Positions 54,635 to 58,156 of a stretch of 64,000 nt of DNA are shown here, piece by piece. The notes under the pieces are model-generated. The model was given only the letters and a program-made list of their open reading frames with translations, made no database searches and had not been told where the DNA came from. The DNA lies in the NCBI RefSeq assembly GCF_001624695.1, contig NZ_JSEP01000020.1, forward strand, positions 1 through 64,000. Direction: 5' to 3'. The first letter of the stretch is position 1. Every line of letters begins with the position of its first letter. A program made the position numbers and the translations under genes. The stretch is from Labrenzia sp. OB1. GTDB taxonomy: Bacteria; Pseudomonadota; Alphaproteobacteria; Rhizobiales; Stappiaceae.

Positions 54635-55222
54635 ATGATCCGCGGACTTTCCATTCTGGTCATCGACGACAACAAGATCCGGGCGTCCATCATCGAGCAG
54701 GGATTGCGCGATGCCGGGCACGACAGGGTTATTCTCGTGCACCAGATGGACGGGCTGGTACGGCAAATCGCGGAAATCAATCCGGATGTGATCGTTATCG
54801 ATCTGGAAAACCCCAATCGGGACCAGCTCGAGCACATGTTCCAGGTGTCCCGAGCGGTTCGGCGGCCGATCGCGATGTTCGTAGACAAGTCGGACAGCCA
54901 CTCGATCGAGGCGGCCGTCGATGCCGGCGTTTCCGCCTATGTCGTCGACGGGCTGAAGCGTGAGCGGGTCAAACCGATCCTCGACATGGCCATCAGCCGG
55001 TTCCGGGCCTTTTCCAAACTGAACGAAGAGCTTGAGGAAGCCCGCAGCGAACTCGCCGACCGTAAAACCATCGATAGGGCCAAGGGCATCCTGATGAAAT
55101 CAAAAGGTCTTTCGGAGCAGGAGGCCTACGACCTTCTGCGCCGGTCGGCCATGAACCAGAGCCGCAAGATCATAGAAGTGGCCCGAAGCCTGGTTATCGC
55201 CAGCGGATTGCTGGAGGACTGA
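54635..55222 (+). CDS. nasT: NasT, ANTAR-domain antitermination regulator
   Basis: 195 residues. A receiver-like domain (about 1-120, ILVIDDNKIRAS, DVIVIDLENP) is followed by an ANTAR RNA-binding domain (about 135-190, LADRKTIDRAKGILMKSKGL, SEQEAYDLLRRSAMNQSRKI). In nitrate-assimilating bacteria NasS holds NasT when nitrate is absent; free NasT binds a two-hairpin leader RNA and prevents termination. nasS follows after 59 bp, and a matching leader lies upstream of nrtA. Confidence 0.93.
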   Translation: MIRGLSILVIDDNKIRASIIEQGLRDAGHDRVILVHQMDGLVRQIAEINPDVIVIDLENPNRDQLEHMFQVSRAVRRPIAMFVDKSDSHSIEAAVDAGVSAYVVDGLKRERVKPILDMAISRFRAFSKLNEELEEARSELADRKTIDRAKGILMKSKGLSEQEAYDLLRRSAMNQSRKIIEVARSLVIASGLLED

Positions 55223-55281: not shown

Positions 55282-56391
55282 ATGGAAAAGAGTTTAACAC
55301 CCGTCATTGCCGGTTTTATTCCTCTGCTGGACAGCGCGGTTCTTGTGGCCGCGGCGGAAATGGGATTCGCGGAGCAGGAAGGTATCGCGCTGAAGCTCGT
55401 CCGGGAAACCTCCTGGGCGAATATCCGGGACCGGATCGCCGTCGGTCATTTCGATGTCGCCCATATGCTGGCGCCGATGCCAATCGCCGCGAGCCTGAAC
55501 CTGACCAGTCTGGCCGTGCCGATGCTGGCGCCCATGCTGCTCGGTCTGGGGGGGAATGCCATAACGGTGTCGACCAGCCTTTGGGAAGACATGGCGGCCG
55601 CGGGCGCCGATACCGGGGGCGATCCTGGCTCGACCGGCAAGGCGCTGGCGGCAGTCATCGCGAGCCGGCGCGCAAAATCGGCACCGCTGCTGCATTTCGG
55701 CGTGGTCCATCCTTTTTCCGGGCATGCCTACGAGTTGCGCTACTGGATCGCTGCCGCTGGTCTGGATCCCGACACCGATGTGGAAATCACCGTACTTGCG
55801 CCGCAGATCATGGCGGATGCGCTCGCGACCGGCCAGCTTGACGGCTATTGTGTCGGAGAGCCGTGGAACACGGCGGCGGTGGCCGCCGGGACAGGGCGGA
55901 TCGTGACCTACAAGCAGGCCATCTGGCCCGACAGTCCGGAAAAGGTCCTCGGTGTCACCCGGAAATGGGCGGAGGCAAATCCCCTGACGTTGGCAGCCCT
56001 TCTGCGCGCCTTGTCCGGGGCTGCCGACTGGTGCGCATCTACGGAAAACGTGGAAAAGCTCGCCGGACTGCTCTCGAGCGCAGACATGCTCGGTTGTCCG
56101 GCGGAGGTTTGCCTTCCGGCGCTTGAGGGCAGCATGCGCCTTGGCCGGAACACGATGAAGCAGGTACCTGACTTTCTGACATTTTCGGGGGGCGCGAAGA
56201 TGGCGCCGATGCCGGCGCACGGCAAGTGGTTCCACGAGCAGATGGTGCGCTGGGGCCAGGCGGAGCGATCGGAAGAGGCCTCCGCGGCGGTGGCCGGAAT
56301 TTTTTCTCCCGACATCTATCTGTCGGCCCTGGGGCTGGAAAACGTGCCCAGGGATACGCCAATTCGCATGTTCGACGGCCGGGAATTCTAG
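55282..56391 (+). CDS. nasS: NasS, nitrate-sensing NrtA-like protein
   Basis: 369 residues, related to NrtA/CmpA substrate-binding proteins ([57 protein letters not shown]). It has no signal peptide, which separates the cytoplasmic sensor NasS from the transporter subunit. It should bind nitrate and release NasT. Ribosome binding site ggagg. It is paired with nasT. Confidence 0.93.
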   Translation: MEKSLTPVIAGFIPLLDSAVLVAAAEMGFAEQEGIALKLVRETSWANIRDRIAVGHFDVAHMLAPMPIAASLNLTSLAVPMLAPMLLGLGGNAITVSTSLWEDMAAAGADTGGDPGSTGKALAAVIASRRAKSAPLLHFGVVHPFSGHAYELRYWIAAAGLDPDTDVEITVLAPQIMADALATGQLDGYCVGEPWNTAAVAAGTGRIVTYKQAIWPDSPEKVLGVTRKWAEANPLTLAALLRALSGAADWCASTENVEKLAGLLSSADMLGCPAEVCLPALEGSMRLGRNTMKQVPDFLTFSGGAKMAPMPAHGKWFHEQMVRWGQAERSEEASAAVAGIFSPDIYLSALGLENVPRDTPIRMFDGREF

Positions 56392-56557
56392 CCGCGATTG
56401 AAGCGCGACACTTCCGGTCAGATGCGCTGCGGTGCACAAAAAAAGATCAACTGCCTGCTGGTGCAGCTGTTAATTCATGCAGGCAGTGCAAGCCGGCTGG
56501 CAGGGGCCTAATGCGTAACTCATTGTAAATCATCAGAAAGATCAAAAATCATTTAAT
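56392..56557. other. Upstream half of the nrtA control region
   Basis: Contains the inverted repeat ACTGCCTGC (56450-56458) / GCAGGCAGT (56479-56487), with perfect 9-bp arms and a 20-base loop. Two GGTGCA half-sites (56431 and 56460) resemble parts of NtrC sites. These could bind the activator of the sigma-54 promoter that follows; this is inferred. The repeat could also end the nasS transcript, but no T-run follows. Confidence 0.4.
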
Positions 56558-56573
56558 TGGCATGCTTCATGCT
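56558..56573 (+). promoter_or_regulatory. Sigma-54 (-24/-12) promoter of the nrt-nir operon
   Basis: TGGCATGCTTCATGCT has GG and GC dinucleotides ten bases apart and matches TGGCACG-N4-TTGCW at most positions. Transcription would begin near 56584, just before the first leader hairpin. Sigma-54/NtrC control of nitrate uptake genes is common in proteobacteria. Confidence 0.65.
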
Positions 56574-56586
56574 TTGAATGAAACGT

Positions 56587-56629
56587 GGCCGACGATGGCC
56601 CATCTTATAACGCGCCCGGTGCTGGGTGC
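56587..56629 (+). promoter_or_regulatory. Candidate ANTAR (NasT) two-hairpin leader
   Basis: Hairpin 1 is GGCC-gacgat-GGCC (56587-56600). Hairpin 2 is GCGCCC-ggtgct-GGGTGC (56612-56629, one G-T pair). Both have six-base loops with G at position 4, as in ANTAR targets, but position 1 is G rather than the usual A. They are separated by 11 bases and followed at once by the terminator. Confidence 0.6.
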
Positions 56630-56636
56630 TCAGGCA

Positions 56637-56698
56637 AAGCCGCCGCTCTGATCTGCATGATTTCCTTCCATTCATGCTGGTCAGACGGCGGTTTTTTT
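56637..56698 (+). terminator. Leader terminator in front of nrtA
   Basis: CCGCCG (56640-56645) pairs with CGGCGG (56686-56691), TCTGA with TCAGA and GCATGA with TCATGC, giving a long stem, followed by seven T. It precedes the nrtA start by 58 bp, so transcription would stop unless antitermination occurs. NasT is the expected antiterminator. Confidence 0.85.
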
Positions 56699-56755
56699 AT
56701 TTGCGCTGGGCCCGGTCGGGCCGGCGCAGGGCAGATGAGGGAAGAGGACGAAACG

Positions 56756-58156
56756 ATGTCAACGACAACTAAGATCACCCGCCGGGTTGCTCTCGGGGCC
56801 CTGATGGCGGCCACGGTGCTGGTGCCCGCTTCCGGTGCCTTTGCCGAGATGCTGGATGTCGAAAAGGATGAGCTGACCTTCGGTTTCATCAAGCTGACCG
56901 ACATGGCGCCGCTCGCGGTTGCCTATGAACTTGGATATTTCGAGGACGAGGGGCTTTTTGTCACCCTCGAGCCGCAAGCCAACTGGAAGGTTCTGCTCGA
57001 CCGGGTGATCACCGGCGAACTGGACGGGGCGCACATGCTGGCCGGCCAGCCATTGGCGGCGACCATCGGTTTCGGAACCAAGGCGCATATCGTCACGCCG
57101 TTTTCCATGGATCTCAACGGCAACGGTATCACCGTTTCCAACGAAATCTGGGAGATGATGAAGCCGCATCTGGAGATGCAGGACGACGGAAAGCCGGTGC
57201 ATCCGATCAAGGCGACGGCTCTGAAGCCGGTTGTCGACAAGTTCAAGGCCGACGGCAAGCCGTTCAACATGGGCATGGTGTTCCCGGTCTCCACCCATAA
57301 CTACGAGCTGCGTTACTGGCTCGCCTCCGGCAACATTCATCCAGGCTTCTATTCAGACACGGATATTTCCGGCCAGATCCAGGCGGATGCGCTTTTGTCG
57401 GTCACCCCGCCGCCACAGATGCCCTCGACGCTCGAGGCCGGCACCATCCACGGCTACTGTGTCGGCGAACCGTGGAACCAGCAGGCGGTGTTCAAGGGCA
57501 TCGGCGTTCCGGTGATCACCGACTACGAGATCTGGAAGAACAACCCGGAGAAGGTCTTCGGAATGACGCAGGAGTTCACGGAGGAATATCCGAACACCAC
57601 GCTCGCCGTCACCAAGGCGCTGATCCGCGCGGCCAAGTGGCTTGATGAAAACGACAACGCAAACCGTATGGAAGCTGTCGAGATCCTCTCCCGGTCCGAA
57701 TATGTGGGTGCGGACGCGGAAGTTATCGCCAACTCCATGACCGGCACCTTCGAATACGAGAAGGGCGACAAGCGCGACGTTCCCGACTTCAACGTCTTCT
57801 ATCGCTACTTTGCGACCTATCCCTACTACTCGGATGCGGTCTGGTATCTGACCCAGATGCGCCGCTGGGGCCAGATCGGCGAATACAAGCCCGACAGCTG
57901 GTACGACGAGGTGGCGAAGTCGGTCTACCGCCCGGATATCTATCTCCAGGCCGCCGAAATGCTGGTCGAGGACGGCCATGTCGCAAGGGAAGACTTTCCC
58001 TGGGACACCGACGGCTACCGGGTGCCCACTCCGGCCGGGGATATCATCGACGGCATCGCCTACGACGGCAAACAGCCGAATGCCTATATCGACAGCCTGC
58101 CGATCGGCCTCAAGGGCAAACAGGTCGTGACCGGCAGCGACGTCGTCGGCGGATAA
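56756..58156 (+). CDS. nrtA: Nitrate ABC transporter substrate-binding protein
   Basis: 466 residues from ATG 56756, with gaagaggac upstream; the open frame further 5' runs through the leader terminator and is not coding. A Tat-type leader ([20 protein letters not shown]) is cleaved near AFA-E. Blocks shared with NasS include [36 protein letters not shown] and [11 protein letters not shown]. It captures nitrate in the periplasm and passes it to NrtB. First gene after the antitermination leader. Confidence 0.95.

Follow-up and report, generated by a model that had tools for sequence, protein, structure and literature searches.

A probable two-layer control region of nitrate assimilation in Labrenzia sp. 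OB1, with a third ANTAR-type hairpin in its NasT-type leader

A 364-base gap lies between nasS and nrtA in the 64,000-nucleotide stretch of Labrenzia sp. OB1 DNA that was analysed (the window), and it raises the question of how this gap controls the nitrate-assimilation genes behind it, and whether the loops of its RNA follow the usual ANTAR rule. Pfam and the open reading frames (ORFs) give the gene order nasT, nasS, gap, nrtA, nrtB, nrtCD, nirB and nirD, and 3' of nirD there are a nasA-type nitrate reductase gene and a siroheme synthase-like gene. A receiver-ANTAR nasT and an NrtA-like nasS beside nitrate assimilation genes are the components of a NasS-NasT system, and the Pfam matches bear out the preliminary description, which had placed nasT and nasS directly upstream of the leader and nrtA downstream. 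Besides, nasS adjoins nasT in related loci too, and the NasT protein can be aligned end to end with EutV (6wsh) and Rv1626 (1s8n). We read the gap as the control region of the nitrate-assimilation operon with two layers, sigma-54/NtrC-type initiation and NasS-NasT antitermination via the hairpins P1 and P2, with an extra hairpin H0, and give this reading a probability of roughly 0.87. Its features are as follows.

54635 to 55222, + strand: nasT, receiver and ANTAR antiterminator protein of 195 aa (Pfam ANTAR, 72.4 bits, and Response_reg)
55282 to 56391, + strand: nasS, NMT1_2 (NrtA-like) nitrate/nitrite sensor (Pfam PF13379, 241.6 bits)
56433 to 56449, + strand: NtrC-like half-palindrome TGCACAAAAAAAGATCA, candidate enhancer (3 mismatches to TGCACY-N5-RGTGCA)
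56558 to 56572, + strand: predicted sigma-54 -24/-12 promoter TGGCATGCTTCATGC (sequence and GG-N10-GC spacing; predicted start near 56584)
56587 to 56600, + strand: H0, extra 5' hairpin GGCC[GACGAT]GGCC with ANTAR-type loop (conserved in the Stappiaceae group, recurrent elsewhere)
56612 to 56629, + strand: P1, GCGCCC[GGTGCT]GGGTGC, putative first hairpin of the canonical ANTAR pair (covariation; loop G4 conserved)
56633 to 56644, + strand: P2, GGC[AAAGCC]GCC, putative antiterminator hairpin overlapping the terminator 5' arm (conserved A1 and G4; compensatory change)
56636 to 56698, + strand: intrinsic terminator with a stem of 23 bp and a run of seven T (fold; 10 pairs changed on both sides among 33 relatives)
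56756 to 58156, + strand: nrtA, first gene of the controlled operon (Pfam and ORFs)

The nrtA frame also stays open across the entire leader, back to a GTG at 56585 (56585-58156), with no obvious ribosome site before it, and we take this as chance.

Two six-base-loop hairpins and a long terminator with seven T had been described for this leader, and all of them are present, the hairpins at 56587-56600 and 56612-56629 and the terminator in both sequence and fold. The leader folds at -54.1 kcal/mol vs -36.9 for shuffles (z -4.45; 0/200). The claim of an ANTAR-type leader held in so far as the leader is of the NasT type, but the hairpin pair had been misassigned: P1 is the hairpin formerly counted as the second, P2 had been overlooked, and the one counted as the first is the extra H0. 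For comparison we used 80 loci found by NasT similarity together with the window, which gave 77 loci with a clean leader (window included). It turned out that the P1 loop has G at position 4 (G4) in 77 of 77 NasT-linked loci, and that the P2 loop has both A at position 1 (A1) and G4 in all 77. This canonical loop, together with the overlap with the terminator 5' arm, in which the P2 loop and 3' strand lie, identifies the hairpin as P2.

The stems point in the same direction. In the P1 stem, 4 of 6 pairs have both-side changes and 98% of the cells are paired. P2 is invariant inside the Stappiaceae group; in Ensifer and Rhizobium it reads CAGC[AAAGCC]GCTG, a compensated GC to AU change with the 5' strand outside the terminator, and in other families the P2 stems have a different sequence with pairing retained. 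These Ensifer and Rhizobium leaders (L054, L067, L081) keep P1 and P2, have a changed terminator base along with the CAGC/GCTG stem, and carry no ANTAR-type H0. When folding was followed in the growing transcript, the P2 share of the ensemble was 59% as long as the terminator 3' arm was absent and 0% once it had been made; forcing P2 in the folding cost 12.3 kcal/mol and removed the terminator base. The published ANTAR arrangement consists of P1 and P2 with A1 and G4, P2 excluding the terminator (PMC3369931, PMC3369936; NasR selection, PMC7496416). Here there are two six-base-loop hairpins with at least three pairs (six in P1, three in P2), both with G4, and P2 overlaps and excludes the intrinsic terminator; A1 is found in P2 (AAAGCC) and in P1 of most relatives, and is missing from P1 of the window (GGTGCT). 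Judged by sequence and predicted structure, P1 and P2 are the published ANTAR antiterminator pair and a putative NasT target. When dual hexaloops that overlap a terminator were sought, this site alone turned up in the 64 kb window, with a score of 18, and 0 or 1 match turned up in each of ten shuffled windows, the best score there being 16.

The P1-P2 loop spacing is 18-21 nt in related loci, nearly constant, and wider elsewhere. With all 6 P1 pairs formed the linker would measure about 3 nt, a point against the present reading, since in EutV a 3-nt linker failed (PMC3369931). The constant spacing across the 77 NasT loci suggests that NasT differs.

Searches with models and patterns were of unequal use. 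Rfam gave no ANTAR- or attenuation-RNA-like match to the leader even at E up to 5, and what overlapped it were chance-level matches to unrelated families. The leader model R2 found only this leader in its own genome (2e-19); the next matches, at E 0.19 and above, were regarded as chance, and the one examined, C46:185438, falls within a coding ORF. R2 class matches were often called on the wrong strand owing to the palindromic terminator, and those loci were rescanned on both strands. A loose hexaloop pattern had over 20,000 matches in the whole genome and was uninformative. The sole other ANTAR protein of the genome belongs to an AmiC/AmiR-like pair (L148 1720-3617; G000:C46, about 178220-180120), whose neighbours are an ABC transporter of the dipeptide type and a gene resembling acetamidase/formamidase. 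Just 5' of the AmiC-like gene stands a stem with seven T, but no clean P1-P2 pair was found at this place.

For the promoter layer, the -24/-12 promoter proposed earlier is present at 56558-56572, resembles TGGCAC-N5-TTGC with GG-N10-GC spacing, and is kept at the corresponding place in nearly all compared loci with a near-constant spacing to H0. The genome encodes both rpoN and ntrC. An NtrC-like site with at most 3 mismatches occurs in 48 of 78 loci vs about 9 expected, at a conserved distance upstream; the site of the window is imperfect (3 mismatches), and Mesorhizobium has a better palindrome at the same distance, e.g. TGCACAAAAGTTGTGCA in L037. From the site conservation, the two regulator genes and the NtrC-like site at its conserved distance, we infer the promoter layer.

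In the proposed mechanism, shortage of nitrogen would lead to NtrC-type activation of the sigma-54 polymerase and to a start near 56584. By default the RNA would fold the terminator at 56636-56698 and transcription would stop. Nitrate or nitrite bound by NasS would release NasT, a step taken over from Paracoccus, where nitrate dissociates NasS-NasT and NasT binds the leader (PMC3795266), and where breaking one leader hairpin abolished growth on nitrate (PMC5424462). Freed NasT would then hold the antiterminator P1 (56612-56629) and P2 (56633-56644), and with nine bases at the foot of the terminator 5' arm locked in P2, the terminator could not reach the T run and the polymerase would read into nrtA. 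H0, at the very 5' end of the RNA, would allow early NasT loading and transfer to P1 and P2, and G at loop position 1 (G1) in H0 and P1 would be a tolerated purine change. The NasS-NasT logic under a nitrogen-status promoter, as first proposed, finds support by comparison of loci, in the order of sigma-54 promoter, NasT-type leader and nrtA. A combination of Ntr-controlled initiation and nitrate antitermination was already known in Klebsiella, as stated in PMC5424462. The two-layer logic and the P1-P2-terminator core are an ordinary member of the known system, that is, a new instance of it. By its sequence, the locus departs from that system in a third ANTAR-type hairpin and in a purine, not a strict A, in P1.

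The known systems show the same likeness and departure. The Klebsiella oxytoca NasR-nasF leader also joins a general-nitrogen promoter layer to nitrate-dependent ANTAR antitermination through P1 and P2 hexaloops, P2 overlapping the terminator; however, NasR is a one-component NIT-ANTAR sensor in place of NasS-NasT, and two hairpins are described there, with A1 in both loops, against three here. In Paracoccus denitrificans nasT-nasS likewise stands directly upstream of the operon and a leader hairpin is essential. NasT binds leader RNA in Paracoccus denitrificans and Bradyrhizobium diazoefficiens, a binding that we infer here, and one or two hairpins are named there, whereas here the leader is partitioned into P1, P2 and terminator with a third ANTAR-type hairpin. 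The Enterococcus faecalis EutV-eut leaders share the dual hexaloop with A1 and G4 and a P2 inside the terminator arm, and their EutV aligns with NasT, but EutV is a kinase-activated response regulator, the P1-P2 spacing is longer in eutP, and A1 is kept in those seeds.

Most surprising is the recurrence of the third hairpin across NasT leaders. The H0 loop has the form C[RANGNN]G in every one of the 33 Stappiaceae-group leaders, with A2, G4 and the C:G closing pair invariant, and it lies, loop to loop, 27 nt from P1 in the window and 26-31 nt upstream of P1 across the group. A wider test covered 120 NasT loci from 385 alphaproteobacterial and 398 Pseudomonadota genomes; P1-P2-terminator units were scanned with only G4 and the closing C:G fixed, and hexaloop hairpins with four or more pairs were counted in the 64 nt upstream of P1 and in 310 nt further upstream. 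Outside the Stappiaceae group, A1/G4 loops made up 17 of 40 hexaloop hairpins near P1 vs 5 of 136 further upstream (Fisher p 6e-9). Just 5' of P1, 17 were seen vs 1.0 expected (about 17-fold; Poisson p 2e-15), counts that are not fully independent although the examples come from well-separated branches. Such H0-like hairpins, with similar spacing, are those of L157, L162, L174, L177, L183, L184, L186/L190, L243/L253 and L233. No third leader hairpin was met in the ANTAR/NasT literature covered, outside which the Azotobacter and Pseudomonas leader work falls, so that it seems unreported with priority uncertain; an extra single hexaloop of EutX RNA is mentioned in the EutV structure paper (PMC8934654). 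Its place at the start of the RNA and the model of successive binding in PMC8934654 make H0 a probable early loading site for NasT, handing on to P1 and P2.

The preliminary description was right that the two loops which it named, those of H0 and P1, have G4 but no A1; P2 keeps its A. G1 in both H0 and P1 is common to the window, L003 and L004, and the next relatives have A in P1. Among 98 non-redundant leaders, position 1 of the loop is A in 84 and G in 14 for P1, and A in 90 and G in 8 for P2, two of these G calls being weak secondary matches. On the NasT tree (131 leaders) position 1 of P1 switches between A and G about 11 times, some distant calls being less certain, and the A-to-G change is recurrent in alphaproteobacteria. 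Since the change recurs so often, G1 in P1 looks, on sequence grounds, like a local A-to-G change by drift under a purine rule rather than a new code. Its toleration fits the EutV-RNA structure, where base-specific contact is limited to G4 and A1 is free of contacts (PMC8934654). G1 in P1 is associated with a C at position 5 of the loop (7 of 14 vs 6 of 84, p 3e-4, ancestry not being considered in the counts), which could allow a 1-5 cross-loop pair, a lead only. It also goes with the presence of H0 outside the group (6 of 8 vs 16 of 68, p 0.006), where only 3 independent pairs are supported and shared ancestry is possible.

One reading would join these observations: many NasT leaders would be three-hairpin relays, in which H0 loads NasT at the promoter exit and hands it to P1 and then P2, and with H0 present the strict A1 rule of P1 is relaxed and G1 accumulates. 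We hold this tentatively, at slightly less than an even chance. H0 could instead simply shield or insulate the RNA at its 5' end and resemble an ANTAR loop by chance; in Mesorhizobium leaders the place of H0 is taken by a hairpin without an ANTAR-type loop (e.g. CCCGTTCGCGGG), which may itself be 5' stabilising, but the invariant A2, G4 and closing pair in the 33 group leaders and the A1/G4 enrichment near P1 outside the group make this rather unlikely. The same Mesorhizobium leaders, in which P1 and P2 remain, speak against H0 and P1 being the NasT-binding pair under a changed rule (G1 for A1) with nothing else bound. Both loops do have C:G closing pairs, a purine at position 1 and G4; however, a canonical A1/G4 hairpin overlaps the terminator in 77 of 77 loci, and published systems need one hairpin of the pair to overlap the terminator (PMC3369931, PMC3369936), while H0 and P1 overlap nothing, so that we consider such a pair highly improbable.

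Very little weight also falls to the idea that the loop change marks a co-evolved RNA-binding face of NasT, a lineage-specific code, even though the three close relatives (window, L003 and L004) all have G1 in H0 and P1. No residue of the NasT ANTAR domain tracks the G1/A1 state or tells the G1 species of the group apart from those with A1, both NasT classes have residues in common along the whole domain, P2 retains A1, and G1 recurs on distant branches. With A1 also in P1 of most relatives and uncontacted in EutV-RNA, the earlier suggestion of a different recognition rule is not upheld. For the promoter, nrtA might be expressed mainly via read-through from the nasTS promoter, the -24/-12 site being inactive. 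As nasTS stands directly upstream on the same strand, this could be imagined, but the conserved site with its near-constant spacing to H0 in nearly all loci, and the separate transcription units of nasTS and nasABGHC in Paracoccus (PMC5424462), leave it hardly credible.

By definition an ANTAR leader has two hairpins, and genome searches seek exactly two A1/G4 loops; targets would be found differently if a third hairpin is recurrent and loop position 1 takes a purine, not strictly A. The EutV structure left open whether the dimer grips both loops together or one after the other. Successive binding would fit with a hairpin for loading at the 5' end, which offers a way to test that model.

Several other loci are worth a record. 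In Aminobacter sp. HY435 and Mesorhizobium alhagi (L045, L064) no leader was found where it normally follows nasS, and this suggests that a stretch has been rearranged or inserted there. Two P1-P2-terminator units lie within 12 kb in several loci outside the alphaproteobacteria (L244-L249, L252 and L266), possibly two leaders under one NasT. Besides, two alphaproteobacterial genomes, G285 and G371 (L125, L126, L137-L139, L162, L173, L182), each contain two nasT-like genes and two or three NasT-type leaders, and NasT may therefore run a small regulon in them.
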